Source of the DNA: a virus
DNA: 32,978 nt
IMG/VR virus record: IMGVR_UViG_3300042557_000720
Location: 1 to 32,978 of that record
Strand: one strand, 5' to 3'
In this document: positions 3,381 to 21,755 of the stretch, piece after piece
How positions within the stretch are numbered: position 1 is the first letter of the stretch
How the letters are laid out: each line of letters opens with the position of its first letter
The notes under the pieces: model-generated
What the model was told of the DNA's origin: nothing
Databases searched by the model: none
The model's input: only the letters and a program-made list of their open reading frames with translations
Position numbers and translations under genes: made by a program

Positions 3381-3992
3381 TTAAGCTGAAAGAAGATTGA
3401 TAAAAGTCTTAAATTTAGCTTGTCTATCAGCGAGTCCGTTAATGCCTCCGTTTATTCGCTTTGTTAATAAAGTAACTGATTCTGGAGTTTTATTATCGCA
3501 AAGTTGCCAAAGTTTATTTTTATCAAAAAACCATAAAGCAGAATCGAGCGGGTATTTTGTAGCTACTAAATCAGGATTTGCAATGCAATCTTCTTCAATG
3601 TAATCGCTAAAATTACGGTAATTATTTTTACCTGTTAGTTGGATATATCCTCTACCACGAAATCTAAACCCGTCGCCTGTTAATTCATTACCATTGCCCA
3701 TCCTATTAGCATAAACCAAATTAGCTATCTTTTCGGGCTGCATAGCATATTGGTCTGCTATTTGTTGAGTCGGGAAAAACCTGCTAAAAGTTCGCATCAA
3801 CCCTTGTGATGAATATCTAAGGTTTTCCCTTACTGCAATAAAGTTATTGCTTTCATGTGCTATCTGAGCCATGAAATGAGCAAGCCTAATTGAAGAAGTA
3901 ATATTTGTAATGTTTTTGCTATTTATCAAAAATTGGTAAGGTGCAACTGGTATTTTATTATCCAGTTTTTTTGTAAATAAAAAATTATTCAT
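3381..3992 (-). CDS. GH19 chitinase-like endolysin
   Basis: A glycoside hydrolase family 19 (lysozyme-like fold) endolysin of 203 aa, a typical size for single-domain phage enzymes. Key parts are AQIAHESNNF with the likely catalytic Glu47, ENLRYS with a second acidic residue (Glu56), and GDGFRFRGRGYIQLTGKNNY-type substrate-cleft sequence around 106-125. No N-terminal signal peptide or anchor is seen, so release to the periplasm should depend on the holin candidates upstream. It follows the spanin gene with a 4-base ATGA overlap. It would cleave peptidoglycan glycan strands at the end of infection. Confidence 0.85.
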   Translation of the reverse strand: MNNFLFTKKLDNKIPVAPYQFLINSKNITNITSSIRLAHFMAQIAHESNNFIAVRENLRYSSQGLMRTFSRFFPTQQIADQYAMQPEKIANLVYANRMGNGNELTGDGFRFRGRGYIQLTGKNNYRNFSDYIEEDCIANPDLVATKYPLDSALWFFDKNKLWQLCDNKTPESVTLLTKRINGGINGLADRQAKFKTFINLLSA

Positions 3993-4498
3993 AACTTATA
4001 AAAACTACGCCCAATAATAATAGCCAAAAGCAATAAGACTATCCACATCCAGCCTATTTGCCTTTTGTAACCTTTAAGCCTAACCTCTAAATTATCCGCT
4101 TTTATTTGGCTCTCCATAGCGGTTTTGGTTAGCGTTTGGATGGAATCCCTTAGAACTTGCACCTGCGCCGTATTCTCAACGGTGCGGGTTATTACCTTCG
4201 TTTCAGTCTTTGCCGGGATGGTTTTTATTATTTCGTTTATTTTGACTTTTGTAATGGTATCGCAACCGATTGATAAAACGCTGTCGAGCTGTTTCCATAA
4301 TAGAAATAACTCATTTTCATAATTTTTGAGTGCAGCGGAATCCATTACAATAATACTATCAATGCTTTCCTTTACGGGATACCTTTCAGCGCACTCCTTA
4401 GCCGCCGCCTCCGGTAGCTTATTCATCAACCTGTCGAGCTTTTTAGGGGTAGCGCATGATGCGAAAAGGCACAATATCAATATGTATTTATTCAGCAT
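3989..4498 (-). CDS. Unimolecular spanin (u-spanin) candidate
   Basis: The 169-aa product starts with a lipoprotein signal peptide (MLNKYILILCLFASC, lipobox LFAS/C with Cys15) and ends with a transmembrane helix (about residues 147-165, WMWIVLLLLAIIIG). The periplasmic middle is Glu/Lys/Thr-rich and predicted extended or coiled-coil (90-145). This layout, outer-membrane lipid anchor plus C-terminal inner-membrane span, is the hallmark of a u-spanin such as T1 gp11, which fuses inner and outer membranes at lysis. The start at 4498 is chosen over an upstream ATG because it begins directly with the signal peptide. It lies between holin-like and endolysin genes, as expected for a spanin. Confidence 0.7.
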   Translation of the reverse strand: MLNKYILILCLFASCATPKKLDRLMNKLPEAAAKECAERYPVKESIDSIIVMDSAALKNYENELFLLWKQLDSVLSIGCDTITKVKINEIIKTIPAKTETKVITRTVENTAQVQVLRDSIQTLTKTAMESQIKADNLEVRLKGYKRQIGWMWIVLLLLAIIIGRSFYKL

Positions 4499-4724
4499 CA
4501 CTACCTTTTTTATCCCCTTTTGTAGCTCCGAAATAAAAGCCCACCACACCTGCAAGCGCACCGCCGAAAATGAAGCCGCCCGCCGTTAATACAAGGTCAT
4601 GATTTTGCTCCGGTATGGGTCGCACCTGCAATAAATACAATAAAAGAAAACTACCTATTACGATAATAATTGCGAGGATATTGCGGATATCCGTTTTAGT
4701 TATCCTTTTTAACCATTCTGGCAT
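4488..4724 (-). CDS. Holin-like membrane protein
   Basis: The product (78 aa from ATG 4724) has two hydrophobic helices, about residues 15-34 (ILAIIIVIGSFLLLYLL) and 46-66 (LTAGGFIFGGALAGVVGFYFG), a short polar loop between them, and a charged tail (ATKGDKKGSDAE). The glycine-rich second helix followed by a Lys/Asp tail is typical of small phage holins. It directly precedes the spanin and endolysin genes and overlaps the spanin start by 11 bases. An in-frame upstream start would lengthen it inside the neighbouring gene. It may form the inner-membrane lesion that releases the endolysin. Confidence 0.6.
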   Translation of the reverse strand: MPEWLKRITKTDIRNILAIIIVIGSFLLLYLLQVRPIPEQNHDLVLTAGGFIFGGALAGVVGFYFGATKGDKKGSDAE

Positions 4725-4892: not shown

Positions 4893-5375
4893 TTATAATT
4901 CTTCAATTTTAGGAAACCAACCATTCTCTTCCATTTGTTGTCTTGTATAAATAGTAACCCCGCCCGGTACTATATACCTAAATTCGAAACTTTGCTGCGA
5001 TTCAATGAATCCGGATAAAGCATCTTTTTCAGCTTGCGATAATTCAGGAAACAAAGCAATAAGATTAGTCAGATTGTTTTCAGGATGCACGATAATATTG
5101 TAATCCAATTCTACCTCCAAAGCCGTATTAACAAATTCTGTATAAGTCGGGTCTTGAGTAGGATGCTTAACCCATCCAAAAAGATAGGTTGTTACATCAT
5201 TCTGGTTACGGATTGCAGGGGGTCTGCTTATTGCCCATAGTTCATAAGAGATAGCTTCTGCTCTCTGTTCGCTTGTTAGTGCTGCTTGTGGTAAAACTTT
5301 AATGTAATTTTGTGCGCTCATGGATAATGAGAAAATAATAATTAATAAAGTAAATATGTATTTAATAGATCCCAT
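4893..5375 (-). CDS. Exported tail-associated protein, unknown
   Basis: A 160-aa protein with a convincing Sec signal peptide: a basic start (MGSIKY), a hydrophobic core (IFTLLIIIFSLSM) and SAQ with probable cleavage before Gln22. The mature part is soluble, with a helical N-terminal section (LTSEQRAEAISYELWAIS) and a C-terminal section ending in RQQMEENGWFPKIEEL. I do not recognise the family. Its start overlaps the end of the lectin-like tail protein gene by 14 bases. A fibre chaperone, a tip protein or a periplasmic factor are all possible. Confidence 0.55.
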   Translation of the reverse strand: MGSIKYIFTLLIIIFSLSMSAQNYIKVLPQAALTSEQRAEAISYELWAISRPPAIRNQNDVTTYLFGWVKHPTQDPTYTEFVNTALEVELDYNIIVHPENNLTNLIALFPELSQAEKDALSGFIESQQSFEFRYIVPGGVTIYTRQQMEENGWFPKIEEL

Positions 5376-6294
5376 AATAAGAATTTATGTTTGTTTCTAT
5401 TCCGGTGCGGCTGGAAGAATTATCAGATGCGTAAATTATATTTTCTGAAATATAACCACCATAATAACCAGCTGTTGAAGTTCTTGTTATAGCCCCTATT
5501 GTAAATGTATTTAAAGTCAAAGTGCCGACATTTACATCTTCATCATTTAATCTATTTGTGCCATTAGTAAATATATCTAATATAGTCCCTGTAGTTATTA
5601 TAGTAAATATATAACTTGTATTTGCTGTATATGTATTTGAAGAACTATTTAATGGCTTTTGAACATTTGCATCATCTCGTATATTAAATGTAAATCTCGC
5701 AGAGCTATTTAATTGAGTAAAAAGAAATGGCGTTGCATTTGTAGTCCTTCCAAAACATGAAATATTCCCAACTGTATTTGTATTTGTTTTATTTATTACA
5801 GCATAATTGCTAACTGGTTTATCAGCTCCTGTAAAATCATTGCTAACATTATCAGCCCTTAAATTATCATTACTACCATCAAAAAATATAGACGGCTCAC
5901 CTGCAATTCTTTCTACCGTACCTGCATTTATTATTCTCGGCTGATTCGCTGCCGTTGTTTGTGTTGCATTTCTTGCATTTGTAGATTGATCGTACCACGT
6001 AGTAACAAAGCCACTATTCGCCCCGACAAAAGTCTTAAGGGATGCAGTATCTAAATCATTACCCACAAATCCAATATCCTGCTCCGTATTATCATTCGAC
6101 CGCCTTACCCTTATTGCGCTGCCTGTATATGCTGTTCTAAGTTTACGTAAAGAATAAGCAGCCGCCGCACCTGAATATTGATCTAATAAAAGATTAGCAG
6201 ATGCAAACGGCACATAATTAGCGTGCGCCTTTATAATCATTTGCGCATCTGCACCTAATCCACAAAAAAGTAATATTACAAAAGTAAATCTCAT
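5362..6294 (-). CDS. LamG/arabinofuranosidase-like tail tip protein with signal peptide
   Basis: A 310-aa receptor-binding-type protein. Residues 1-18 look like a Sec signal peptide (RFTFVILLFCGLGADA, cleavage before Gln18). The mature N-terminus (about 35-125) matches a pattern recurring in Bacteroidota phage tail proteins, AYSLRKLRTAYTGSAIRVRR then EQDIGF and TTWYDQS, related to the concanavalin-like arabinofuranosidase-B catalytic fold. The rest is Thr/Asn/Ser-rich beta sandwich, with FFDGSNDNL typical of LamG-like folds. It probably binds or degrades surface glycan. It is joined by ATGA overlap to the fibre gene upstream. A signal peptide on a virion protein is unexpected. Confidence 0.7.
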   Translation of the reverse strand: MRFTFVILLFCGLGADAQMIIKAHANYVPFASANLLLDQYSGAAAAYSLRKLRTAYTGSAIRVRRSNDNTEQDIGFVGNDLDTASLKTFVGANSGFVTTWYDQSTNARNATQTTAANQPRIINAGTVERIAGEPSIFFDGSNDNLRADNVSNDFTGADKPVSNYAVINKTNTNTVGNISCFGRTTNATPFLFTQLNSSARFTFNIRDDANVQKPLNSSSNTYTANTSYIFTIITTGTILDIFTNGTNRLNDEDVNVGTLTLNTFTIGAITRTSTAGYYGGYISENIIYASDNSSSRTGIETNINSYYGIY

Positions 6295-7901
6295 ATTCTC
6301 TTTTTATACCCTAATAAGGTCAAAGTAAAATAAGTTGGCTTTGTTGCCACCGCTGATGTCCTAACAAATACCCATACATTTGGCGGAATCTTATTATCGG
6401 TGAATGATGTTACATTTGTCGCACCTATCGTACCTATTACTGATGTGCCGCCACTCACCAAAATAGTTGCACCCGCTGTAATATTTAAACTATCGTTCCA
6501 ATATACTTCTGTTGTAATACTTGGCGAAGTACCTAACACCCCTGCCCTCATTTGAGTAATTATCAAAGTATCGCTCCCTGCATTGTAAAAGCTACCATAA
6601 ACCGCCGATGTGCTGAATGCAGCCGTATCGCCTGCCGCCCCGCTACCCGCACCAAAGACCGCCAAAGGAACGGTGTCAAATTGCAGGATACTTTCAACGG
6701 TCTTATTTTCCCAATACCCCAGCGAAGAATTGTATCTTATAATATCATTATTTGCTTCATTTGTAATTCGTACATTATGCAATTCATCTAATTCTACTCC
6801 GTTTTGAGGCTTTACATAAATTAAACCATTACCAGCATTTGCACGCTCCACGACGCCCACAAAAACGCTATGTTTTGGTGCCTGTGGCTTATTCTTTGTA
6901 AACCCACCCGCCACGCTATCGAGCCATAATATATCGCCCGGATTATATGCACTTAAATTAATCCCGCTAACCTGCCCCTGTGTTGTAATCCATCCCGCCT
7001 GACCCGCTGCAATATTCGCCCTAACTATTCCTAAAGTCTTAGAGCTAAATGTGTCGCTTGTATTCTTTGCTAACTTTACTGATGCCCTATCGCCACTTGC
7101 CCCAAAAATATAAACTACCTGACCCTTTGTAATTGTAACTGCTTCGGCATTTGTTACGTACGCTTTTACTACGGTTGCAGTGTCGTAATTTCCTATCGGT
7201 TGATAGGTAGCCGCCGCCACACTTGAGCGAAGGTAAGGGCTTAGCATTGCCGCCGTATCGGTATATTTTACACGCTCATTAATCCGATTGCTTAATGAAG
7301 TTGTATCGCTTGAGATGGTGCCTAAGTCAATTACTCCATTGTTTGCCGTATTGTAAGTAGTTCCGTTTACTTTTACACGTTGAGTTAATGTGCCTGATGA
7401 ATCGGGTAAATATATAAGTCTGCCATCTGTCGTATAAGGCGCTGAAATATTAGCGGAAATATTATTTTCTGAATTTCCAATATCTAAATAATTTTTAGCA
7501 TAAATTCCACCGTCTTCAAATAATGCGGATGATAGTATTCCATTAACGGTATCTTCCCAAACACGTAATATACCTGAACCATAAATATTAATATTATCCG
7601 TTGTAATTTTCCCGGCTTGTGTAACTTGCTGCAAAGTTGGAATTGCGCCGCCGTCGCCAACTTTTCGCCATTGGCTGCCAGTCCAAATATACATCGAGCT
7701 GTCTGCAAGGTTGTAACGAATGCCACCAGTATCCCTCCCCGTTGTGGCTGTAACTTTCGGGATATTTAAATTAGTATTAAACTTCCCCCCGCTCCATTGA
7801 TACCAGTTGTTAAATATAGTGTAAAGCTTCCCATCAACGGTTTGCCCTTTGCCTGTAAAGGATAGCAAAACCAATAATACACTAAATATAAATTTGCACA
7901 T
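6291..7901 (-). CDS. Tail fibre protein with signal peptide
   Basis: A 536-aa fibre-like protein starting at ATG 7901. Residues 1-19 form a signal peptide (CKFIFSVLLVLLSFTGKG, probable cleavage before Gln20). The centre (about 250-370) carries a domain common in phage fibres (ITKGQVVYIFGASGDR, GDILWLDSVAGG, VGVVERANAGNGLIYVKPQNG, ELDELHNV). Thr/Ser/Asn-rich beta repeats surround it. Nine matches to the Bacteroidota O-glycosylation sequon D-(S/T)-(A/I/L/M/T/V) occur, at Asp 117, 199, 215, 240, 328, 409, 425, 444 and 470. An earlier in-frame ATG (7925) would add eight residues before the signal peptide. Host attachment is the likely role. Confidence 0.75.
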   Translation of the reverse strand: MCKFIFSVLLVLLSFTGKGQTVDGKLYTIFNNWYQWSGGKFNTNLNIPKVTATTGRDTGGIRYNLADSSMYIWTGSQWRKVGDGGAIPTLQQVTQAGKITTDNINIYGSGILRVWEDTVNGILSSALFEDGGIYAKNYLDIGNSENNISANISAPYTTDGRLIYLPDSSGTLTQRVKVNGTTYNTANNGVIDLGTISSDTTSLSNRINERVKYTDTAAMLSPYLRSSVAAATYQPIGNYDTATVVKAYVTNAEAVTITKGQVVYIFGASGDRASVKLAKNTSDTFSSKTLGIVRANIAAGQAGWITTQGQVSGINLSAYNPGDILWLDSVAGGFTKNKPQAPKHSVFVGVVERANAGNGLIYVKPQNGVELDELHNVRITNEANNDIIRYNSSLGYWENKTVESILQFDTVPLAVFGAGSGAAGDTAAFSTSAVYGSFYNAGSDTLIITQMRAGVLGTSPSITTEVYWNDSLNITAGATILVSGGTSVIGTIGATNVTSFTDNKIPPNVWVFVRTSAVATKPTYFTLTLLGYKKRI

Positions 7902-8583
7902 TCTCTCCGTCATTAACGCCGCCATGGATTGTAATTGTTTTAGTTCCTGAATTAAATGAAATATAACGCCTATCGCTCCTTACTTGATATGTCAAAATTA
8001 ACCCATCTATAAATACCAAAGGCGGGACAACAAGGCTATTATTTGTAAAGTCGGTATCGTCTTGCTCCATCGGCTCGCCAGCACCAACTATGAAATCAAT
8101 TATTTTACTCATTCGACTTGGGTTTATAAATATCGTATCGTTCTCAGGTAGCTCATAGTTACTCGGTAAATCGCAAACATCATAAAGAAATGGCACTTCT
8201 AAATCAATACTGAACGTAACGCCCGCCACAATGTCCTCAAATTTATCCTCAAAAAATTCAAAGGTTGTAGATCGGGTAAACCGCCACGGCTGTTTCTCCC
8301 ATCCTATTTGCCCTAACAAATCATTCGCCACCTGCTCCATGTCGCTTTGCACCTCCAGCTCCGTTGTATGAAGCACAATATCCGCAACCGTTACAAGCAC
8401 CGTGTGAGTCTTTATTTTACCCTCCGTTGTGCTATTACCCATTGTCATGAACACCGCCGGGTAGGTAACATCCTTCACCTCGTTATGCAGGAAGTAGTCA
8501 GCATTTACGACCTTTGCCGTCCTTACCTGCCGGTGGTCGGTTGCTATCTTTTTTAGTTGTATTGCTATTTGGTTTCTGGTCAT
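7882..8583 (-). CDS. Tail terminator/head-tail joining protein candidate
   Basis: A 233-aa protein placed two genes after the portal. The N-terminal half (MTRNQIAIQLKKIATDHRQV... then DVTYPAVFMTMG, VTVADIVL, and a helix with SDMEQVANDLLGQIG) has the order of helix, strands and helix seen in tail terminator proteins that cap the tail tube. The C-terminal 80 residues are beta-rich (FIDGLILTYQVRSDRRYISF) and may be an added Ig-like or fibre-attachment domain. The assignment is by position and fold impression, not by a diagnostic motif. It overlaps the fibre gene by 20 bases. Confidence 0.45.
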   Translation of the reverse strand: MTRNQIAIQLKKIATDHRQVRTAKVVNADYFLHNEVKDVTYPAVFMTMGNSTTEGKIKTHTVLVTVADIVLHTTELEVQSDMEQVANDLLGQIGWEKQPWRFTRSTTFEFFEDKFEDIVAGVTFSIDLEVPFLYDVCDLPSNYELPENDTIFINPSRMSKIIDFIVGAGEPMEQDDTDFTNNSLVVPPLVFIDGLILTYQVRSDRRYISFNSGTKTITIHGGVNDGENVQIYI

Positions 8584-8624: not shown

Positions 8625-9197
8625 CTATACATTTTTAAACGGTTTTTGGCAATCTTCGCAATTCTTAAATTCATCATAAGGCATCCCCAAATAAATACCG
8701 GGAAAGTATGCGTCACGTTTTGGAACTACCGTATCGGCACGGCTTCCCGGATTGATATATAAAGGAAACTTTGCGTTATTGCTTTCCTCAACTAAATACT
8801 TTACAAGCCTTTGACCGTAATATTCCGCACGGCTTTTAAACTTATTTTTTAAGTCAATAAGTTCGCTCATGCTTACATTTTCGCTGCCTTCATTCGTCTT
8901 TTTAAGTACGCCCTTATTCCAGTATTGATGGGTAAGTGTATCGGTAAGTTCCGCCACCACGTAATAAATAAGGCAGTCCCTCACATAGCTTTTTAGCAGG
9001 GCAATTTCGTCGACTGTTAGATTATTGCCTTCGATACCAACCTGCAAGCGTTCGTAAAGTCCTGAGCCTAATAAGGGCAAAATATACATATCCTGACAAA
9101 CCTTTATTTCGGGCACAATCATTTTGCTATCAATATTGGAATGGATTTGCGTCCGCTCATAAATATTTTCAGGGCTTATGAATAAAGTATCTCTCAT
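8625..9197 (-). CDS. Head-tail connector (head completion) protein candidate
   Basis: A 190-aa, mostly helical protein encoded right after the portal gene. The region from DSKMIVPEIKVCQDMYILPLLG to LLKSYVRDCLIYYVVAELTD resembles head-tail connector proteins of the HK97 gp6 type and a helical family common next to portal genes in Bacteroidota phages. The C-terminus ends in a CxxC pair (CEDCQKPF), unusual for a connector; it might bind metal. It lies three bases from the portal stop. No signal peptide. The role is inferred largely from position. Confidence 0.5.
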   Translation of the reverse strand: MRDTLFISPENIYERTQIHSNIDSKMIVPEIKVCQDMYILPLLGSGLYERLQVGIEGNNLTVDEIALLKSYVRDCLIYYVVAELTDTLTHQYWNKGVLKKTNEGSENVSMSELIDLKNKFKSRAEYYGQRLVKYLVEESNNAKFPLYINPGSRADTVVPKRDAYFPGIYLGMPYDEFKNCEDCQKPFKNV

Positions 9198-9200
9198 TTT

Positions 9201-11153
9201 TTATTTTTTACGAATAACGAAATTTTGCACCCAGCGATGACGGCATGATGGGGAGTGTTGCCCATCCGGCTTAGTCCACCAACCGCCACGCCTATCCCAT
9301 ACGCTGTAACCTAATCTCATGCTCATTGTTTCAATATCGGCACGTGAAAAGAATTTTTTTAACCCCAAAAGTCTACGGCAAAAATCACGGTTGCGGCTGT
9401 CTTCGGGACCTTCATAACTATACATTATCTTTTGCTCATAGGTGCGGGGCTTTTTATTGGTAAGCTCGCTCAAAGGCTCTGGCATAGTGCGCTCAATGAT
9501 TTCATCAACGCCTATCTTTTTAACGGCTGCAACTATCAACCCACCTTCTGCAAGGCTCTTAATAATATCCGCAACTTCATCAACAGGCATTTTCAAAGCC
9601 TTTGCAATCACTTCCGGAGTAATCCTTTTATCCTTTTTTATAAGGTCTAAAATATTAACCTCCTTTTGTGTAAGCTCTTCCTGAAAATTGAAACGGGGGC
9701 GGGATGCAATTACATTAAAATTATCTTTGCTCTCTCCATGCGCCGCAAATTCAGCTAACAAAAGTTCATCATTATCCTGAGCGTTAAACTCCATATCGTT
9801 ATCAATAGATAGCATCACATTAATTTCATCATCGGATAAACCTAATGAAGATTTAAGCAATAACTTAGCCTGCTCTTTATTGATACGACCTTTTTCAAAA
9901 TTGCGGATAATACGATTAACGCCCTGCCATTGCCTTCCGGTAAGATTTTTCAGATTCTCATTAACAGTTGCGGACGGTTGCGCTGCTACCGGCTGCCCAG
10001 CGGGTTGCACGGCTTCCGGATACTTTGTCAAATCAATACCCAGCTTTTCCAGTATCCACGCCTTCGGAGCAAATTCTTTTATCGTATTTTCACTAAATTC
10101 AAAGGCAATCGGTTCAATCGGAGCAATCACCATTTCGCCCTGCATCCCAAACAAATCGCTAATCTCAGTAAACAAGGCTTCGAGCGCCCTCTGTTTGTCA
10201 TTGATATAAGTATTTTTAAAGATTTCATAAGCATCCCGCATTTCAGTACGCCCGCCTAATTGCCCTTCGCTTTTAATACCAAACAAAATTGGGCTTGTAA
10301 TTTGATGCCCGACAAATATCTGCTGCTCCGTTGTCTTATTCAGAATATCGAAATGCTTGTCAAGGTCGGTATTGGATAAATCTAAAACGGTCGGCGCTTT
10401 TGCAGGGTCATCACTAAACGACAAAACAATACCGCCCGCATTTTCGCTTCCTGTAAATTTCTTTTTGAATTTAGTCTCAACAACTTGCTGCTCTTCGGGC
10501 GAAGGTTTGCCCTCATTGAAGTTAATCAACTTGCTGCTAAACATACCATTTTTGATAGTGCTTAAATGGTACTTAGAAAGTTCTATATCAATTTCAATCC
10601 AGTTGAGTGCGCCAATATAACCCGGATAGGAATAAGACTCTAATCCCGGTCTATATTCCTTATAAAATAATATCTGCTTACCCTCTTTCACCGCAGGGTT
10701 GTAAGCCGCCACAACCTCCGGCTGCACCCTTACCGATTGCGTCCAATCTTTAATGTAATATTGCGTATTGTCCTTATTTGTACGCACTTTGTGGTAAGGA
10801 ATATGATAAACTGCGCCAACATTGCCCAGAGCGTTATAATGAAGCTCAAGATACACACCACCAAAAATTTCAATATCCGTTGAAACCTTTTTGAGTAAAT
10901 CATTTATCGTTTCATTCTTATTAGGCACCAACTCCTGCTGGCTATTGTCTTTATACGATATGCCATTGCCAATTATGTAATTAACCTTACCCAAAACAAT
11001 CCCGTTGTGCTTACTGCTTTTGTTCAATTTCTCCAAAAGCATATTAGGGTAAAGATTATCTTCACCAAATTGCACATACCCTTTGCCGGGAAGCTCAACC
11101 ATTTCAGGCAGCTTTACATCTGCGAATTTTATGAAACTTATATTAGGATGCAT
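9201..11153 (-). CDS. Portal protein with fused C-terminal modules
   Basis: A 650-aa portal protein. Residues 15-370 are the portal core of Bacteroidota siphophages: GYVQFGEDNLYPNML, NGIVLGKVNYIIGNGI, and FVGHQITSPILFGI around 280-293 in the stem/crown region. Residues 400-455 form a linker (TGRQWQGVNRIIRNFEKG). Two modules are added. Residues 494-550 (LTQKEVNILDLIKKDKRITP, then VIAKALKMPVDEVADIIKSL and GLIVAAV) read as a winged helix-turn-helix. Residues 575-650 carry Cys/His features (NRDFCRR, GGWW, SPSCRHRW), a pattern I associate with minor head proteins. The gene lies far from terminase, after the capsid genes. Confidence 0.85.
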   Translation of the reverse strand: MHPNISFIKFADVKLPEMVELPGKGYVQFGEDNLYPNMLLEKLNKSSKHNGIVLGKVNYIIGNGISYKDNSQQELVPNKNETINDLLKKVSTDIEIFGGVYLELHYNALGNVGAVYHIPYHKVRTNKDNTQYYIKDWTQSVRVQPEVVAAYNPAVKEGKQILFYKEYRPGLESYSYPGYIGALNWIEIDIELSKYHLSTIKNGMFSSKLINFNEGKPSPEEQQVVETKFKKKFTGSENAGGIVLSFSDDPAKAPTVLDLSNTDLDKHFDILNKTTEQQIFVGHQITSPILFGIKSEGQLGGRTEMRDAYEIFKNTYINDKQRALEALFTEISDLFGMQGEMVIAPIEPIAFEFSENTIKEFAPKAWILEKLGIDLTKYPEAVQPAGQPVAAQPSATVNENLKNLTGRQWQGVNRIIRNFEKGRINKEQAKLLLKSSLGLSDDEINVMLSIDNDMEFNAQDNDELLLAEFAAHGESKDNFNVIASRPRFNFQEELTQKEVNILDLIKKDKRITPEVIAKALKMPVDEVADIIKSLAEGGLIVAAVKKIGVDEIIERTMPEPLSELTNKKPRTYEQKIMYSYEGPEDSRNRDFCRRLLGLKKFFSRADIETMSMRLGYSVWDRRGGWWTKPDGQHSPSCRHRWVQNFVIRKK

Positions 11154-11526
11154 CGTACATTTTAAATTTAACGTCTTGTGAATATTGCGTGTAACTTATG
11201 TTTGTATTGTCATCTAAAAACATCAATCCGCTTTCTAATAACCCTAATCCCGCCGGGTTTACATTCGTGGAGCTTGTTTGCTCATAAATATCGTAACGCC
11301 ACCACCCTTCTTTGTAATTCCCGAAATGAGTATTTACCGGAATGGTAAATTCATTCCACCTTTCTTTATTCGTCGATACATCAAGTAAATAACCTTTGAT
11401 AAAAGTAACAATATCATTCGTTCCCCTGTTCGTAAAAACAAATAAATAATAAGGGCTTTCAATAGTCTGCTTTTCTTTGAGAGTGCAGATAATTGTCGCC
11501 GTAGTTCCTTTTACAAATTTAAACAT
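11143..11526 (-). CDS. Small beta-rich structural protein, unknown
   Basis: A 127-aa, beta-rich soluble protein between the tail tube and portal genes. It begins FKFVKGTTATIICTLKEK and contains YYLFVFTNRGTND and GWWRYDIYEQTSS, reminiscent of Ig-like or head-decoration proteins, but I cannot name a family. Its stop overlaps the portal start by 11 bases. Its start follows a terminator (11551-11582) and the ATCGGTAT motif, so it may begin a new transcript that includes the portal gene. Confidence 0.55.
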   Translation of the reverse strand: MFKFVKGTTATIICTLKEKQTIESPYYLFVFTNRGTNDIVTFIKGYLLDVSTNKERWNEFTIPVNTHFGNYKEGWWRYDIYEQTSSTNVNPAGLGLLESGLMFLDDNTNISYTQYSQDVKFKMYDAS

Positions 11527-11533
11527 ATCTATT

Positions 11534-11545
11534 TATAAATACCGA
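11534..11545 (-). promoter_or_regulatory. Post-terminator motif, site A
   Basis: On the minus strand, TATCGGTATTTATAAATAG lies between the terminator at 11551-11582 and the ATG at 11526. The core ATCGGTAT is shared with 13747-13770 and with about 26445-26452, and a related CAGGTATTTATTAAA lies before 21679. It could be a phage-specific promoter element; inference only. Confidence 0.35.
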
Positions 11546-11550
11546 TAAAC

Positions 11551-11582
11551 AAAAACCCCGCCCAAAAGAATAAGGGCAGGGC
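11551..11582 (-). terminator. Terminator after major tail protein gene
   Basis: Read leftward, CCCTGCCC, a loop TTATTCTTTT and GGGCGGGG are followed by TTTTTG. It lies about 30 bases after the stop of the gene at 11614-12132. Its layout resembles the terminator at 21701-21731, which also has a TTATTCTT loop. Confidence 0.8.
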
Positions 11583-11613
11583 ACACAATTAAACCAAACA
11601 AACAAAACTTAAA

Positions 11614-12132
11614 CTATCCAGCAGTCTGCAAAGCATTTGCAACAGAGCTATTAACCTCAACCATTGGTTCGGGTTCACTACCTGCAAAAGTCAAATCGAA
11701 TCCGCTACGGTCTCCGAATGCAGTTCCAGTGCCCATAGTTCCGGTTGTCAAGTCAATACCGTTTTGCCTTCCAACTAACCAATATTTTCCATTGTTATCT
11801 TTAGCAACGGCAATAAGAGTGTTTTGAGCTAACAATTTGATTTCATTGCGGACTGCAACAACCAATTTATTAACGACAACTTTAACCTCTGAAGCGTAAA
11901 ATACCGTTCCGTTTTGTACGTTTCCGGTCAAAGTTTCAGTAAGTGAACCAGTTTCTTTTGGTAATTCATATTTCCAAAATCTTTTTCCGGCTGCTTTTGT
12001 AATTCCTGTTACAACCCCGCTGGCGTCAACAATAGAAGTTACATTACCTTTCTCGATAAAATAAACCTCTACTATACCGCCCGAAGAGTCTTTACAATCT
12101 AATGTATAACCTGATGTAAGTGCGCAAGGCAT
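11614..12132 (-). CDS. Major tail tube protein candidate
   Basis: The 172-aa product has a pattern I know from structural proteins of Bacteroidota phages: MPCALTSGYTLDCKDSSGGI at the start, KRFWKYELPKETGSLTETLTG (50-72), NGTVFYASEV, then AVRNEIKLLAQNTLIAVAKDNNGKYWLVG and a Gly/Thr-rich GTGTAFGDRSGFDLTF. Size and beta-rich nature fit a tail tube subunit. It has its own terminators before (12156-12179) and after (11551-11582), as expected for a very abundant virion protein. Head decoration is the main alternative. It sits next to the major capsid gene rather than beside the tape measure. Confidence 0.65.
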   Translation of the reverse strand: MPCALTSGYTLDCKDSSGGIVEVYFIEKGNVTSIVDASGVVTGITKAAGKRFWKYELPKETGSLTETLTGNVQNGTVFYASEVKVVVNKLVVAVRNEIKLLAQNTLIAVAKDNNGKYWLVGRQNGIDLTTGTMGTGTAFGDRSGFDLTFAGSEPEPMVEVNSSVANALQTAG

Positions 12133-12153
12133 TGTTAAAAATTTTTATAAGTG

Positions 12154-12179
12154 AAAAGGGAGGTTGTTACGCCTCCCTT
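12154..12179 (-). terminator. Terminator after major capsid gene
   Basis: Read leftward, AAGGGAGG, a loop CGTAACAA and CCTCCCTT form an 8-bp stem, followed by TT and a mixed tract. It lies five bases after the capsid stop codon. The T-tract is short, so partial read-through into the tail gene is likely, which would set the relative amounts of the two proteins. Confidence 0.65.
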
Positions 12180-12184
12180 ATAAA

Positions 12185-13165
12185 TTAGGCTTCGAACTTC
12201 ACAATTTCATCAACAAAGGCGAACTGAACACCAATCTTCATGCGAGCGGTGAATTTGATGTTTTCATCATCTTCGCTCCAGCGAATCCAGAATTTATTTT
12301 CTTCGTCAAGTAAGTCAGTACCTAAGAAGATATTGCTCATTCTGAAAGCGTAGATACAAGCATCAGCATCAGCGCTATCTAAACCGTGTACAGGGATTAC
12401 TTTGTAGTTAGTACCCGGTACGGTGAACACCGCAGCGTTATCATCCCATTTTGCGTCAGGAGCATAGTGGAACAAATTTTGGTCTACATATGCCTGAATC
12501 AAATATGAGAATGTAGTCCATCCGCAGAAGATGCGAACATCATCTTTACCTTGTACTTTAGCGGGTAACGCTTTAATAACCGCTAAGACAGCGTTCTTTG
12601 CGATTGCAGCACTATTGATAGTAGTTGCAGGAGTACCGTAGAATCCGGTTGTATTTGCATTTGCAACTGAACCACCAGCGGCAGTGATTAAGGTTTTGAT
12701 ACCATCAAACTTATTCAAAAGTCCGTTAGTGCCTGCGCTTCCTGTTGCGTTAGCAGTCCACAAAGCAACCTCAAGAGCTTCTGCAATTTTCTTTGCTTTT
12801 TGGTCTGAGTAGTCAGCAGCGAAAGCAGCAGTAGTGTATTCTCCCCCCGCCTTTAAAGATTCTTGGAGGTAGTAGGGTTCTAAGTCCTTATCGCAAAGGA
12901 TTTCATTTACTTTCACTTTACCAACGGTCAAAGTACGTTGAGTAAAGGTAGTAGTTCCAGAAGCATTAAATCCGCAAGCGCTATCATCCTGAAAAAACAC
13001 ATCGGTATCCATACGACCGATTGCTTCAGAAGATTTAACACCTACGCGAACATTACCCATTTTCAGGATTTCTTGCTGTGTTCTGGCTTCGAAAACTGAG
13101 TTCTTAACCAGCAAGTCTACGTTTTGCTTAGTATATGCGGCTAAGCCCGTTACATTGTATGCCAT
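12185..13165 (-). CDS. Major capsid protein
   Basis: The 326-aa product is the major capsid protein, probably of HK97 fold. It is preceded by the scaffold gene and two genes upstream lies the prohead protease. Recognisable features are an N-terminal helix (YTKQNVDLLVKNSVFEARTQQEIL), an extended loop, a spine-helix region with YSDQKAKKIAEALEVALW (about 118-136), DVRIFCGWTTFSYLIQAYVDQN, and a C-terminal beta section with FWIRWSEDDENIKFTARMKIGVQFAFVDEIV. It lacks an obvious cleavable N-terminal delta domain, consistent with a separate scaffold. It is followed by its own terminator. Confidence 0.8.
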   Translation of the reverse strand: MAYNVTGLAAYTKQNVDLLVKNSVFEARTQQEILKMGNVRVGVKSSEAIGRMDTDVFFQDDSACGFNASGTTTFTQRTLTVGKVKVNEILCDKDLEPYYLQESLKAGGEYTTAAFAADYSDQKAKKIAEALEVALWTANATGSAGTNGLLNKFDGIKTLITAAGGSVANANTTGFYGTPATTINSAAIAKNAVLAVIKALPAKVQGKDDVRIFCGWTTFSYLIQAYVDQNLFHYAPDAKWDDNAAVFTVPGTNYKVIPVHGLDSADADACIYAFRMSNIFLGTDLLDEENKFWIRWSEDDENIKFTARMKIGVQFAFVDEIVKFEA

Positions 13166-13171
13166 TTTTAC

Positions 13172-13747
13172 TTATTGTTTAAAAAGGTTAATAATACTAT
13201 TTAATTTTTCTTCTTTGTTTTCAATCTGCTTACCAAATTTGAAACCGCTTTTTACAGGCTCGCTGGGTTCAGTTGTAGGCTCTTTTACAAGCTTCTCAAC
13301 TAACTCAAACAGCCCTTTAATAGCTTCTTCGGATTTAGCGAAAGCAGCTTTTAAATTCACGTTTTCAGTTTCTAATGCTGAAAATTTAGCATCGTAAGCG
13401 GCAAATTTTTCATCGTACTTTTTGCCCATATCCTCAGCTTCGGCAGGTGCTTCGGCTTCGGGAGCGGCAGCGGGTTTGATTTCGCTAATTACACCACCCT
13501 CACCGAGTACGATTATCGTACCGTCTGCAAGCTCATGCTCACCAGCGGGAGCGGGTGCAGTAGTTTCCTTTTCAACAGAAACCACACCTCCAACCTCTAA
13601 TTTGTCGATGTAAACTTCCGTTCCATCTTTCAGCATATATCCGCTAAATTCTTTCTTTTCGGGAGCAGGCTCAACCGCAGGGGCAGCAGGCATTTGCTCT
13701 TCAAATACCAGCGCTTTAACTTTTTGTAATAATTCGATCGGATTCAT
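13172..13747 (-). CDS. Scaffolding protein candidate
   Basis: The 191-aa product begins with ATG 13747, has low-complexity Ala/Pro/Glu stretches (about 18-30, 65-75, 92-108), and then a coiled-coil (YDEKFAAYDAKFSALETENVNLKAAFAKSEEAIKGL, about 110-147). A basic tail (KFGKQIENKEEKLNSIINLFKQ) is the type of C-terminus that scaffolds use to contact capsid protein. Two short repeats (YMLKDGTEVYIDKLEVGGVV and HELADGTIIVLGEGGVI) resemble beta modules found in such proteins of related phages. It ends six bases before the capsid start. A farther upstream ATG (13801) would run into the preceding terminator, so it was not chosen. Confidence 0.7.
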   Translation of the reverse strand: MNPIELLQKVKALVFEEQMPAAPAVEPAPEKKEFSGYMLKDGTEVYIDKLEVGGVVSVEKETTAPAPAGEHELADGTIIVLGEGGVISEIKPAAAPEAEAPAEAEDMGKKYDEKFAAYDAKFSALETENVNLKAAFAKSEEAIKGLFELVEKLVKEPTTEPSEPVKSGFKFGKQIENKEEKLNSIINLFKQ

Positions 13748-13766
13748 ATCCAATATATACCGATAC
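13748..13766 (-). promoter_or_regulatory. Post-terminator motif, site C
   Basis: The minus-strand sequence ACGGTATCGGTATATATTGG lies just before the scaffold ATG and downstream of the terminator at 13802-13827. It contains a tandem CGGTAT and the ATCGGTAT core seen at two other leftward intergenic sites. It may be a start site for the scaffold and capsid transcript. Confidence 0.35.
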
Positions 13767-13801
13767 CGTAAAAAATAGGACTTTTCCCAATGAAAAAGCA
13801 T

Positions 13802-13827
13802 AAAAAAACCCCCGTAAAAACGGAGGT
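13802..13827 (-). terminator. Terminator after glycosyltransferase gene
   Basis: Read leftward, CCTCCG, a loop TTTTTA and CGGGGG (one T-G wobble) are followed by TTTTTTT. It lies about 20 bases beyond the stop of the gene at 13848-14843 and separates it from the scaffold-capsid pair. Confidence 0.8.
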
Positions 13828-13847
13828 CGGTATTGCAACAAACAAAC

Positions 13848-14843
13848 TCAATTTATTAGGCGATTGAACAAATCAAACCTTTTTTGATTGATTGCCTCAA
13901 AGTTATAATTTTTAGCGCAATATTCAAAAAGCATTTTGCCTTTTTCTTTCCTCAAATCTTCGTCTTCAACAAGGGTACGGATATTCTCATTCCAGTTTTC
14001 ATAATAGACAATATCTTCGGGAAATCCCAAATAAGGATTGACCTTTGAAACAATGACCGGGATGCCTTTGCCCGCCGCTTCAAGTATCTTCAAATTACTT
14101 TTGTAGCCATTAAACTGCGTTTTGCGGAGTGGGATTAACTTAATATCGCTTTCTAAATACATTTGGTAGTATTCGAACACCGGAAGCCCCCGATACGCCA
14201 TGTTTGGCAGCAAAGCATCCGCCGTAAAGTGCGCCGCCATCCTTTTCCAATAATATTCCTCTGTTGGATTGCTATCTGAATAGCCGCCCAAAACCATTTT
14301 GATTTTATCCTTTAAATCACTATTCAAAACCTTTTTCATTACAGGCTTTAGTATCTTCAAATCGTTTTCATGCGATATGCCGCCCGCCCAAAATAGCCTA
14401 ACCGCCTCCGATGGGTTGCGCTCATTGGTAAATTGGTTTTCACCGTACGGAATAGCATTCGGTAAAATTTCCACGTTTTTGTTATGGTAATAAACCTTTT
14501 CCGCTAACCGCTCATGAGTACAGGTAACTAAATCCGCTTCCTTTAAATGCCTTACTATTTTTACATCAACATTATGCTTGTTATAAGTATCAAAATCCAA
14601 ATGGTAATTATCCAAAATCCAAAAGTCATCAACATCAACTACCAATTTAAAACCGTGCTTTTTGCGGAGCTCAAAAATATCATCCTTTGCCCAAATCCTG
14701 TTTATGTTTACAATGTCGTAATCAAACTCTTCCGGTATGGTATCGGTAATTCGTGCCTTTTCCTTTTTCATCATTGATACCGGAAGCATCAAACGATGGT
14801 AACCGCAACCGCTGAAGGATTGCGTTAATACTAAAATTTTCAT
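13848..14843 (-). CDS. GT-B fold glycosyltransferase (GT4-like)
   Basis: A 331-aa glycosyltransferase of the GT-B fold. It starts with MKILVLTQSFSGCGYHR, has a first Rossmann-like half (VVDVDDFWILD; ADLVTCTHERLAEKV; VEILPNAIPY) and a second half with RLFWAGGISHENDLKIL, a KMVLGG strand and the donor-site segment YKSNLKILEAAGKGIPVIVS with the usual Glu. No membrane segment is seen, so it is cytoplasmic. It is inserted between the prohead protease and scaffold genes, which suggests that it modifies a virion protein, or a host glycan, late in infection. Donor and acceptor are unknown. Confidence 0.8.
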   Translation of the reverse strand: MKILVLTQSFSGCGYHRLMLPVSMMKKEKARITDTIPEEFDYDIVNINRIWAKDDIFELRKKHGFKLVVDVDDFWILDNYHLDFDTYNKHNVDVKIVRHLKEADLVTCTHERLAEKVYYHNKNVEILPNAIPYGENQFTNERNPSEAVRLFWAGGISHENDLKILKPVMKKVLNSDLKDKIKMVLGGYSDSNPTEEYYWKRMAAHFTADALLPNMAYRGLPVFEYYQMYLESDIKLIPLRKTQFNGYKSNLKILEAAGKGIPVIVSKVNPYLGFPEDIVYYENWNENIRTLVEDEDLRKEKGKMLFEYCAKNYNFEAINQKRFDLFNRLIN

Positions 14844-14862
14844 TTGTTTGGTTTAATTGTGA

Positions 14863-15783
14863 TTAAATATTTTGCAGTAAATTTTTTAATTCTTCGATTA
14901 CTAATTTTGCCGCCGCTTCCTCTGACATTTTCATCGACATTTTAACGGGAAGCATATCGAACATACCCTCCACGCTAAATCCTTTGAACGTGCCGTCTTT
15001 CACCTTTGCCCACGCATCATCTGAATTAACCTTCGCACCTAAAAACCACGTCCCATCCGGGAGGTCTTCGAATTGTTTCATTTTCGGAATGCCTTTGCTT
15101 TCATCTGCTATCCACGATTGAAAGAAAACCATATCCACGGGTTTGTTAGGATTGTGCATCTCATTGCCGTTATTCTGGAAGCCCTTTTTAAAAAACTTTT
15201 CAGCAATGATGCGAATCGTTCCCTTTGTGAAAAACACCTCGTATTCCGTTCCATCTTCATCACGTCTAAAAATCCTTTTATCCGGTATCATTGCGGGACC
15301 TACCACAATGCGCTCCTCTTCATTGATAACTGCAAAGGCTTGCATCTTTTCCCTATCTATTTGCTCCAGTTTCCTTTGTGCCCATTCAATACCCGCATCA
15401 CCGCCCCACGCTAACCACATAAGCCGCCCACAACCGTCGCCCAACTCTTTATCTGAATTTTGCCTATGCCTCTCAAATGCCGCCATTCGTGCGATAGTAT
15501 CGCGGCTTATGGCTTCGCCTTTTGCTAATTGGTTCGCCCTTTGTTTACCGACCGCCGTTCCGCAATCGCCCCATCCGTTCTCTTCAGCCCATCTTAAAGC
15601 TATCTTAGCGTTATCGCTTGCAGCCTTTGGGTAATCCGTATAACTCTCAAATTCCTGTTCTTTGAACGCATAGAATCCAACCCCTATGGCAGGCACGTCC
15701 ACTAATGCAACGGCATCGACTTCCTGAACGCTATCTACGTTCTCCGAAATATCTAACTTGTAAACCGGTAATTCTTTACTCAT
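14863..15783 (-). CDS. Prohead protease, XkdF-like, with inserted domain
   Basis: A 306-aa capsid maturation protease of the XkdF/S78 type. The catalytic part (about 150-280) shows ERIVVGPAMIPDKRI, VFFTKGTIRIIAEKFF, NEMHN with His210, VFFQSWIADES, GTWFLGAKVNSDD and KGFSVEG with Ser270. Interrupting the N-terminal strand is a distinct block (48-146): YPKAASDNAKIALRWAEENG, KQRANQLAKGEAISRDTIAR, GCGRLMWLAWGGDAGIEWAQ. I have seen this block elsewhere in phage head proteins, but its function is unknown. The protein ends in a Met/Glu-rich helix that could itself be scaffold-like. Confidence 0.8.
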   Translation of the reverse strand: MSKELPVYKLDISENVDSVQEVDAVALVDVPAIGVGFYAFKEQEFESYTDYPKAASDNAKIALRWAEENGWGDCGTAVGKQRANQLAKGEAISRDTIARMAAFERHRQNSDKELGDGCGRLMWLAWGGDAGIEWAQRKLEQIDREKMQAFAVINEEERIVVGPAMIPDKRIFRRDEDGTEYEVFFTKGTIRIIAEKFFKKGFQNNGNEMHNPNKPVDMVFFQSWIADESKGIPKMKQFEDLPDGTWFLGAKVNSDDAWAKVKDGTFKGFSVEGMFDMLPVKMSMKMSEEAAAKLVIEELKNLLQNI

Positions 15784-15794
15784 AATTTTATTTT

Positions 15795-17588
15795 TTATCC
15801 AATAGATGCGTTCCTATCTATATACGCATTTCGCTGGTCATTGTTCTGAATGTCGCTATTCAATACGTAAGCCCTTGTCGCCTGATTGCCCATCTGATTC
15901 ACCGCCGCCGTATTCACCGCCGTTGCTGTAACCTGTGGGGTAAGTTGCGGAGCGAGGGGAGCGGTAGTATTAATGCCACCACCGCCACCACCTGATGGGT
16001 TAGGCACGGAAGCACCGCCGCCGCTTTTAAATTTGGCTATCGTAGTTGCTACTATTGTTGCGATTGATGCGGCGGCTCTTATTTTTGTAATTAACGATAA
16101 TTTCGCGCCAAGCGCAGCGCCCGAACCCGGAACTATTGCGTTCATGGGGTGAGATGCGCCATATAACATATTTGCAGATATTTCCCTTTGCGCATCTACA
16201 ATTATTTTGCCAATAGCTAAAGCTTTATCAATAGCAAAAAATATATTTGCTATTTTTTCATTGCCCTGAGCTAAAGTAGCCAAAGCATTAAGACCAGCAG
16301 ACGCCGCCTCAAATTTAGCATCTTGCAAGGCTATTTCGGCATCTACTTGAGCTTTATTAAAATCAGAAGTTACATTTTTTATCCGTGCAAATTCGGAAAG
16401 TTTATTATTTATATCCGCTTCCTGTCTTGCTTTATCTTTTGCTAATTTTTCTTCTTGTAATTTTTTTACTCTTTCAGCTTCCTCTGTTTCAAATTTTACA
16501 CGAATAGCAGTTAAATCCCTTTGATATTGCGTTTCTAAATCTAAAAAATTTGTAACTCCTGCGGCAATTAATGTAGCTTTATTTTTTTTAAATTCATCTA
16601 ACAAAGTAGCTTCTTGCCTTTGCCTTTCAGTTAATCCCTTTAATTCTACTTCCCTTAATACTTTGTCGGCTGCTTCCCTTAATTGCCTTTCCTTTTCCTG
16701 CTGCTCCTGTAATTTACGCAACCTTTCCGCTGCCGCCCTTTTTTGCTCTTCAAGTTTTTTCTTATTAGCCTCCTGTTCTTTTTTAAGTTCCTCTTGTCTT
16801 AATTTTTCACGTTCATCTGCTTGATCTTTTATTTCCTTTTGTTCGCCAGCTCTGAAATTCTTAGTAAATGCAACACCATTTTTCAAAGCCTCAAAAGCAC
16901 CTTTGAAATCGCCTTGCACCGCTTTTACTATTGCACTAATCGGAGCGGCTAAAAACTGCAATAAAGCATTACCAACGCCCATCGCTATTTGCTTAAGCCT
17001 ATCCATCAAATCACCCGCCCCTTTCAATGCCGGGAACAATTCGCCTAATTTATTTTTAACGGCGTCGAAATTAGTAACTAAAAATGCAACAGCGGATGTA
17101 ATTAAGCCAATCCCTGTTGCCATCATTGCACCCCTCAAAGTAGTGAACGCCGCCACCACCTGCGCCTTAATAGTACCTGCCAAAAGTTTAAAAGAATCTA
17201 TCGAGCCTGCAATACCGCTTAAACCCTGCTGCAAAGCCATTGCGGATTGAACCTTCAAAAGCAATTGTTCAACCTCTTTATTTTTATCAGCAAATAATCC
17301 CATCGCACCCTGCAAAGCGGAAAAACCTGCAACCGCCCCCTGAACCGCACCGCCCAATGCTACAAACTTTTTATCTGGGTTGAATGTATCTGCAAGCGCC
17401 TTCGCATCCCCAATAGCATCTTTTAATTTAGCTACCCTTTGAGCCGCTTGAGTAGCTTCCTTTGAACTGCTGCCAAATTTCTCATTCATCGCAACAAGCT
17501 CATTCGTTGCAGCCCTCAACTGCTGCTTCATATTACCTACCGAAGAAACATCGACATCAATCTTTAAACCTACTTCCTGCTTAGCCAT
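15795..17588 (-). CDS. Tail tape measure protein
   Basis: The 597-aa product shows the usual tape measure architecture: an N-terminal beta/helix segment (VGLKIDVDVSSVGNMKQQLRA), long Ala-rich helices, hydrophobic stretches (about 85-110 and 140-172, TTLRGAMMATGIGLITSAVAFLV), a highly charged coiled-coil (about 250-410, rich in E, K, R, Q), and a Gly-rich C-terminus. By the usual rule of about 0.15 nm per residue the tail would be around 90 nm. It overlaps the preceding tail gene by eight bases. Unlike in lambda-like phages, it comes after the distal tail genes and before the protease and capsid genes. Confidence 0.85.
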   Translation of the reverse strand: MAKQEVGLKIDVDVSSVGNMKQQLRAATNELVAMNEKFGSSSKEATQAAQRVAKLKDAIGDAKALADTFNPDKKFVALGGAVQGAVAGFSALQGAMGLFADKNKEVEQLLLKVQSAMALQQGLSGIAGSIDSFKLLAGTIKAQVVAAFTTLRGAMMATGIGLITSAVAFLVTNFDAVKNKLGELFPALKGAGDLMDRLKQIAMGVGNALLQFLAAPISAIVKAVQGDFKGAFEALKNGVAFTKNFRAGEQKEIKDQADEREKLRQEELKKEQEANKKKLEEQKRAAAERLRKLQEQQEKERQLREAADKVLREVELKGLTERQRQEATLLDEFKKNKATLIAAGVTNFLDLETQYQRDLTAIRVKFETEEAERVKKLQEEKLAKDKARQEADINNKLSEFARIKNVTSDFNKAQVDAEIALQDAKFEAASAGLNALATLAQGNEKIANIFFAIDKALAIGKIIVDAQREISANMLYGASHPMNAIVPGSGAALGAKLSLITKIRAAASIATIVATTIAKFKSGGGASVPNPSGGGGGGINTTAPLAPQLTPQVTATAVNTAAVNQMGNQATRAYVLNSDIQNNDQRNAYIDRNASIG

Positions 17589-19914: not shown

Positions 19915-21026
19915 CGGTATTGGGTATTTTGTTTGTAAACATCGATATTAACCTCCAGCGTTTCGGTCTTATTCTGCAAGCTGTTTTTTATTTCATAATT
20001 GCTATCGGTTATTTGCACGGGATGGAACAAAGCATTTGTTTTATCCCACAAATAAACAAGCGGCGAAACAATTAACTCAAATAGCCATTTGTACTCTTCG
20101 CTCCCCAAAATATCCGTTGTCAATTTCATCTTAGTAGTAAAATCCACGCCGTATGTTTTCATGCCCTCATATTTTACCTTTCCCGTTTTATCAACCATGT
20201 TAAACCCGCTCAGCTGCCATTCGCTCCGCTCAAACTTCTTCTTTTGATTATCGGTTAAAATATTGCCATTCACGAAAGTAAAGCTATCCCACGCCCCATA
20301 AGCATTTAGAAAAATCAAAGTGTAAGGCGTGTATTTTGAGCACTTAGATTTTATTTGCTTAGTTGCAAGTACCGACCCCGTCGTTTCTATTGATACCGTC
20401 GCATCGGCAGCCATGCCATTAAGACTGAAATAATGGAAAGCATCCGCTGCTGTAATCGTTCGTGTTGAGCCCAAAACTTTAATAAGCAAACTTTGCCCCG
20501 CCGTTATCCTTTTGCCGTTTATGCTTAGCACTACCGGCTCACCATTGTAGTAATAACTTTCATCTGGTCTGTTACTTAAAAACACCGTGCCGCTGCTTAG
20601 TGCCGCTCCTGCCTTATGCATCGGGTGGCGGTTGTAGGTATTGTAAACCCGGTAAGTACCTGACGCCATATTTTCAGTTGTAGTAACCCCGCAAATCTCC
20701 CCAAACCTTACATCGTATTCCGTAAACCAATAATCCGCGCCACCGTTCAATACTCCAAACGTGCCGCTGTAAGCCGTCGCCGTATCCACATCGCCAATAT
20801 TATCAACCGCTACGCCCGCCCTCACAATATTACCCACATTCAACACGCCGTAATCATCCGAGCCGTACGGGCTATTCGTTATCCGGGTCTGCAAGGTCGC
20901 ACCCTTGTAAATATCGTAAAGGTATTTAAACCCGATAACATTCTTATTCGTGCTATCCACAACGTGCCATACCTCTTCATTTGCGGAGGTGAACCCGGAC
21001 GGTGCGCTCTTAATAGTGATTGCCAT
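19911..21026 (-). CDS. Distal tail structural protein
   Basis: A 371-aa, beta-rich protein encoded before the 777-aa tail protein with a 4-base ATGA overlap. It begins AITIKSAPSGFTSANEEVWHVVDS, followed by a strand-rich region with IGFKYLYDIYKG and a C-terminal half containing NQKKKFERSEWQLSGFNMVDKTGKVKYEG and KLTTDILGSEEYKWLFELIVSPLVYLWD. I recognise the general pattern from Bacteroidota phage tail modules, where it may correspond to a Dit-like or baseplate protein. The precise role is uncertain. Confidence 0.55.
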   Translation of the reverse strand: MAITIKSAPSGFTSANEEVWHVVDSTNKNVIGFKYLYDIYKGATLQTRITNSPYGSDDYGVLNVGNIVRAGVAVDNIGDVDTATAYSGTFGVLNGGADYWFTEYDVRFGEICGVTTTENMASGTYRVYNTYNRHPMHKAGAALSSGTVFLSNRPDESYYYNGEPVVLSINGKRITAGQSLLIKVLGSTRTITAADAFHYFSLNGMAADATVSIETTGSVLATKQIKSKCSKYTPYTLIFLNAYGAWDSFTFVNGNILTDNQKKKFERSEWQLSGFNMVDKTGKVKYEGMKTYGVDFTTKMKLTTDILGSEEYKWLFELIVSPLVYLWDKTNALFHPVQITDSNYEIKNSLQNKTETLEVNIDVYKQNTQYR

Positions 21027-21679: not shown

Positions 21680-21700
21680 ACTTTAATAAATACCTGAAAA

Positions 21701-21731
21701 AGAAAACCCCTGCCTAAGAATAAGCCGGGGG
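21701..21731 (-). terminator. Terminator after tail chaperone genes
   Basis: Read leftward, CCCCCGGCTTATTCTTAGGCAGGGG forms an imperfect stem, followed by TTTTCTTTTT. It lies 25 bases after the stop of the frameshifted chaperone and resembles the terminator at 11551-11582. It should limit chaperone transcription relative to the following tail genes, or the reverse. Confidence 0.65.
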
Positions 21732-21755
21732 ATTGCTTGCCATGAAACATCAACA

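Follow-up and report, generated by a model that had tools for sequence, protein, structure and literature searches.

Introduction

Virions of filamentous phages are assembled in the membrane without lysis, and those of tailed phages in the cytoplasm. Filamentous coat proteins of the M13 pIII type are synthesised as Sec preproteins and carry a signal sequence (PMC8310372), a property that the proteins studied here would share as virion proteins. Fibre-like proteins with signal peptides are also encoded by phages Ingeline and Nekkels, whose lyases resemble the proteins described below and, as checked here, have Gln at position +1; in the passages that mention these signal peptides, in a single clause, the conflict with virion assembly that is our subject is not discussed (PMC8776804). 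Genes whose products carry signal peptides that expose Gln are likewise known from the Porphyromonas gingivalis phages (Nixviridae), where their function is unknown and where, unlike here, they are not described as fibre proteins but read as outer-membrane modifiers (PMC10367356). Gln directly after the cut defines the Bacteroidota-specific Q-rule, which is tied to the pyroglutamate formed afterwards (PMC5837995; PMC10653852). In the open-access literature we found no paper on the assembly paradox posed by exported virion proteins of tailed phages.

Here we analyse a virus record of 32,978 bases (IMGVR_UViG_3300042557_000720), taken over its whole length and called the window below, which derives from a freshwater phage.

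Genomic Setting and Host Group

The late operon of the window runs on the minus strand in the order terminase, tape-measure candidate, protease, capsid-region genes, portal, connector, fibre block, small membrane proteins, lipoprotein, and GH19 endolysin (table 1). Portal and connector genes upstream and endolysin and spanin-like genes downstream flank the three genes fib, lec, and g53, which gives them the position of a fibre or adhesin block. Homology to fibre or virion proteins was found for fib, through its residues 251–400, and for lec, through phrog_10356 and phage homologues, which occur in Synechococcus and actinobacterial phages; searches with g53 gave no informative match to fibre or virion proteins. 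The AlphaFold2 models of fib and g53 were unusable (pLDDT 36 and 44, respectively), and scanning the window for Rfam families and tRNAs gave no matches.

Table 1. Positions of the fibre block, its signal peptides, and neighbouring late genes in the window
Feature	Position	Strand	Basis or remark
Terminase	22516-23679	(-)	
Tape-measure candidate	15795-17588		weak match
Portal	9201-11153	(-)	
Fibre block fib-lec-g53	7913-4893	(-)	
fib, tail-fibre-like protein	6291..7913	(-)	residues 251-400 match other phages' tail-fibre proteins at 31-41% identity; 60 homologous loci
fib signal peptide MCKFIFSVLLVLLSFTGKG, predicted cut before Gln (without the preceding MTER)	7845..7901	(-)	Q20 first invariant column (22-sequence alignment)
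lec, lectin-like tip protein	5362..6294	(-)	PF09206, N-terminal part, E=1.3e-6; phrog_10356 virion structural protein, E=4.7e-28
lec signal peptide MRFTFVILLFCGLGADA, predicted cut before Gln	6244..6294	(-)	A15, A17, Q18 invariant in 23 homologues
g53, small protein of unknown fold ending the fibre block	4893..5375	(-)	24-sequence alignment, 73% mean column identity
g53 signal peptide MGSIKYIFTLLIIIFSLSMSA, predicted cut before Gln, optional module	5313..5375	(-)	10/24 homologues have it
Short repeat, second copy TACATTAAA	5298..5306	(-)	first copy TCTATTAAA at 5361-5369; signal-peptide indel between
Holin-like small membrane protein	4488..4724	(-)	inferred from hydrophobic sequence and place beside spanin-like and endolysin genes
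Spanin-like lipoprotein MLNKYILILCLFAS/C, lysis cassette adjoining the fibre block	3989..4498	(-)	lipobox in 29/29 family members; weak phrog_1804 Rz-like spanin match, E=0.016
GH19-type endolysin, lysis cassette	3381..3992	(-)	phrog_181 endolysin, E=1.4e-59; PF00182

The gene order is unusual, with portal and connector coming last among the structural genes (9201–23679), directly before the fibres. At its C-terminus the portal-like protein is extended by a region that matches a winged helix (PF13412, E=5.9e-5) and closes with a conserved motif (...RRGGWWTKPDG...CRHRW), and it is possibly a fusion of portal and head-morphogenesis proteins. A glycosyltransferase gene (13848–14843; phrog_7162, E=1.7e-66) lies within the head gene cluster, and the head genes of phi18:1 and phi12:1 likewise include a glycosyltransferase.

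The window phage probably infects Bacteroidota. Shine–Dalgarno-like sites were found at none of its 34 genes, which is similar to the Bacteroidota phages phi10:1 (3/64) and P12024S (1/39) and unlike the Nitrincola (6/11) and Synechococcus (7/12) phages, and among named phages Nonlabens phage P12024S has the nearest portal. Two contig scans, one with fib and one with a portal alignment, gave no match to a host genome or prophage. Because homologous domains in phages from outside the Bacteroidota (those of Synechococcus, Gordonia, Pseudomonas, and Nitrincola) come without a signal peptide, the export tag goes with the host group.

Signal Peptides of the Fibre Block

The N-termini of the three proteins read MCKFIFSVLLVLLSFTGKG/QTVD in fib, MRFTFVILLFCGLGADA/QMII in lec, and MGSIKYIFTLLIIIFSLSMSA/QNYI in g53 at the predicted cut, and all combine the features of Q-rule substrates: n-region, hydrophobic core, small residues at −3 and −1, and Gln at +1. 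The original prediction, that three consecutive genes carry host-style Q-rule signal peptides cut before Gln, is borne out at all three N-termini, and the feature is kept in homologues. For fib it had assumed a start at 7901, of which the signal peptide stands and the start does not: the start is ambiguous between ATG 7925, 7913, and 7901, the signal peptide holds with any of them, and ATG 7913 (MTERMCKFIF...) is the likely one because homologues (MKAKIYRYIFSS...) line up there. The only effect of this choice, relative to 7901, is an n-region extended by MTER.

We scored signal peptides by a home-made mechanical rule, which asks for an n-region that is not net negative, an uncharged hydrophobic core of nine residues, a small residue at −1, and Gln at +1. 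A stricter version with a net positive n-region, used for the window only, is passed by 3 of its 47 called genes, which are exactly the neighbours fib, lec, and g53. Among 652 distinct genes from the window and 73 related loci (a count that includes nonindependent kin genes, the metagenomic relatives being fragments and many of them mutually close), 80 pass, 79 of them in fib (43), lec (25), or g53 (11), while the eightieth encodes a transmembrane protein. Spurious open reading frames pass in 7/261 cases, six of the seven being contig-end fragments of fib or lec, so that 1/255 remains, and shuffled versions of the same N-termini pass in 1.1%. On the strength of this family-restricted count we rejected a chance origin of the signal peptides. 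As related genes are not independent, the main strength of the evidence lies in the presence of the feature in three separate families, and in fib, where signal peptide and Gln are kept before two unrelated N-terminal domains (QTVDG... vs. QNRFPSVDS...).

The signal peptide is present in 43/43 distinct fib genes counted, and along the full length of fib the invariant positions begin with Gln at +1 (22 sequences). In lec homologues, which share 38–76% identity with the window protein, Ala at −3, Ala at −1, and Gln at +1 are invariant, and dN/dS is 0.76 over codons 2–17 but 0.08 over the 10 codons past the cut. As judged from these substitution rates, the pattern is that expected where a cleavable signal peptide precedes a mature N-terminus under tight constraint, unlike that of a conserved docking helix.

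We also considered other roles for an export tag. A lipobox Cys at +1 is absent from fib, lec, and g53, all of which have Gln there, and only the 3989–4498 protein has a lipobox. Type IX secretion was rejected, since no T9SS C-terminal domain was matched in these proteins with Pfam or NCBIfam, and so was export for disulfide formation, as the mature chains hold 0–2 Cys.

Gain and Loss within the Fibre Block

Homologues without the hydrophobic segment, which the original prediction had named as evidence against it, were found for g53 and not for fib or lec proper. Of 24 close g53 homologues, 14 start straight at M-x-[YF]IKVxPQ, without signal peptide or other visible change, so that export of g53 is not needed in all phages and is dispensable in some. 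The two forms share the same junction with lec (e.g., MAYIK-YILTLLIIILSLSMSAQNYIK-VLPQ vs. MAYIK-VLPQ), and a codon comparison of genes with and without the signal peptide shows that they differ by an in-frame block of 63 nt between short repeats ending in ATTAAR. The g53 tree implies about five switches of the signal peptide (3–6 in bootstraps), with few well-supported branches. Read-through fusion of lec to a g53 devoid of signal peptide was rejected, as the g53 frame is almost always closed by stops a short way ahead of its start.

In L066, a phage closely related to that of the window (96% portal identity), fib retains its signal peptide, and four genes that lack signal peptides stand in the place of lec and g53. 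This tip cassette, in the place of 4893–7925 of the window, encodes MTIAKIRYG (63 aa), MAQNTKPVF (133), the lectin-like MFKGFNN (236), and KFKTYEEAWQ (151); between the two phages, the entire adhesin cassette has been swapped behind a constant fib N-terminus. The constant element of the block is the exported fib.

Signal-Peptide-Bearing Fibre Proteins of Cultured Phages

Cultured phages of Cellulophaga have similar blocks, in which three to five successive genes for fibres or lyases precede the lysis region and almost all encode Q-rule signal peptides; unlike the window phage, they are marine, have cultured hosts, and have been subjected to virion proteomics. In phi10:1, the lysis region is preceded by a run of five genes (gp91–95) that encode Q-rule signal peptides, and gp91–94 are recorded as structural from experimental MS/MS. 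The same status is recorded for all of phi19:1 gp101–103, with Q-rule signal peptides, and gp104, with Lys at +1, and for phi18:3 gp85–87, all Q-rule. Over these three phages, 11 of the 12 proteins bearing signal peptides are thus recorded in virions by MS/MS, a status taken from database record annotations; the measurements are described as made on purified viral particles (PMC11946311). The same blocks are found in phi13:2, phi19:3, Nekkels, and Ingeline, whose records have no MS notes of their own. Since searches with fib, lec, and g53 gave no match to phi10:1, phi19:1, or phi18:3, the fibre families that bear the trait are unrelated. A predicted processed N-terminus among these Cellulophaga phage proteins is, for example, pyroGlu-TVEGTVGSDGSLIPYNV... 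By analogy, the cultured phages argue for proteins that are exported and end up in virions rather than for misread anchors.

Fibres of phi13:2, phi18:3, and Nekkels_1 share, at ~88–93% and in front of other bodies, the 42 N-terminal residues of phi10:1 gp94, made up of the signal peptide and a further 23; by sequence, the signal peptide and the stretch that follows appear to move as a unit. Signal-peptide-free fibres are found in phi18:1, phi12:1, phi38:1, 11b, B40-8, and P12024S, and on the basis of these six isolates we rejected the idea that every Bacteroidota phage has the trait; phages of this group need not export their fibres.

Three further observations concern individual isolates. The Lys at +1 in the MS/MS virion protein gp104 of phi19:1 (L100:31814-33154) suggests that this protein can associate with virions without pyroglutamate. 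In phi19:3, one block contains a signal-peptide-bearing fibre in two copies, gp89 and gp94 (L104:5702-6613 and 9001-9915), which suggests duplication or cassette gain. Flavobacterium phage FCL-2 has a 147-aa open reading frame, annotated as hypothetical, whose product has a Q-rule signal peptide and begins like a fibre (QVGIATTTPTETLDVNGTARVRNL; L110:45363-45806).

Discussion

That exporting a tail-fibre block is odd, as had been remarked at the outset, is upheld by these data. We propose, with a probability of roughly 60%, that the adhesins are exported by Sec, cut, capped by pyroglutamate, kept outside the cytoplasm, and docked on tails at lysis. The products of fib, lec, and g53 would be tail adhesins or accessory fibre proteins with functional Sec signal peptides fitted to a Bacteroidota host. 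Late in infection they would cross the inner membrane via Sec, signal peptidase I would cut before Gln, and host glutaminyl cyclase would convert the new N-terminal Gln into pyroglutamate, while heads and tail cores, whose genes lack signal peptides, would be built in the cytoplasm. The adhesins would be stored outside the cytoplasm until holin, endolysin, and spanin open the cell, and would then dock on tails, probably via the conserved stretch just past the cut. Export and virion membership are what we infer with good support, and when and where docking occurs is conjecture; for the window phage itself, export, cyclisation, and virion membership of its own proteins would follow by analogy. 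The evidence that counts against this mechanism is the 14/24 g53 genes without signal peptide, the replaced lec and g53 of L066, and the six Bacteroidota phages with signal-peptide-free fibres; MS detection, too, could come in part from co-purifying soluble exported proteins.

Signal peptides first of all mean export, and the exported proteins may act mainly at the surface or in the surroundings of the infected cell, by superinfection masking or by degrading or binding polysaccharides, their presence in virions being a secondary matter of sticky soluble proteins. Several of them are lectin- or pectate-lyase-like, and the Q-rule genes of the P. gingivalis phages have been interpreted as modifying the host surface (PMC10367356). 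We nevertheless regard this explanation as unlikely: the genes have a fibre position between structural and lysis genes, proteins so placed in three isolates are MS/MS virion records, and neither a T9SS C-terminal domain nor a lipobox is there to place the proteins on the cell surface. Sec export followed by docking at lysis is preferred because it is the simplest account that uses both the signal peptide and virion membership. Among the options raised originally, maturation in the periplasm and joining of the virion at lysis is the one that fits best, given the cultured-phage counterparts in MS-analysed virions, and coating of the host surface to block superinfection, another of them, keeps a lower probability.

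The usual assembly of tailed-phage virion proteins in the cytoplasm would be retained if the N-terminus were an uncut structural element, a tail anchor or membrane tether, on proteins that stay cytoplasmic, and the MS/MS records, which give virion presence and not processing, agree with this. A docking element should however be the conserved part, and here it is the variable one: the lec signal-peptide codons drift (0.76 against 0.08) around invariant A−3, A−1, and Q+1, the first invariant fib residue is Gln+1, and g53 exists in forms that have the segment and forms that do not. The suggestion, also made originally, of structural anchors mimicking signal peptides is for these reasons disfavoured, and we consider it improbable. 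That both g53 and the tip cassette occur in a signal-peptide-bearing and a signal-peptide-free form among phages that are otherwise alike, as though either compartment could be tolerated, could point instead to a dual fate, one part of the protein being exported late as free adhesin or lyase and another evading Sec, folding in the cytoplasm, and entering virions with its signal peptide on. With the constant fib signal peptide (43/43) and no sign of a retained pool, such a division is very improbable, a shade below even the uncut anchor.

A broader generalisation, which we hold tentatively and at a little under even odds, is that several unrelated lineages of Bacteroidota tailed phages build their virions in two compartments, with cytoplasmic heads and tail cores and a pack of Sec-exported, cut, pyroglutamate-capped adhesins attached at lysis, and that the signal peptide plus a docking stretch of ~20 residues is the unit by which adhesins are exchanged between phages. 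Textbook tailed-phage assembly is cytoplasmic; if the proposed export is true for many Bacteroidota phages, fibre attachment becomes an event of lysis, free exported adhesins may act before it, and two host enzymes, glutaminyl cyclase and signal peptidase, count among the host factors of these phages. Failed expression of such fibres in the wrong compartment would then find an explanation as well.
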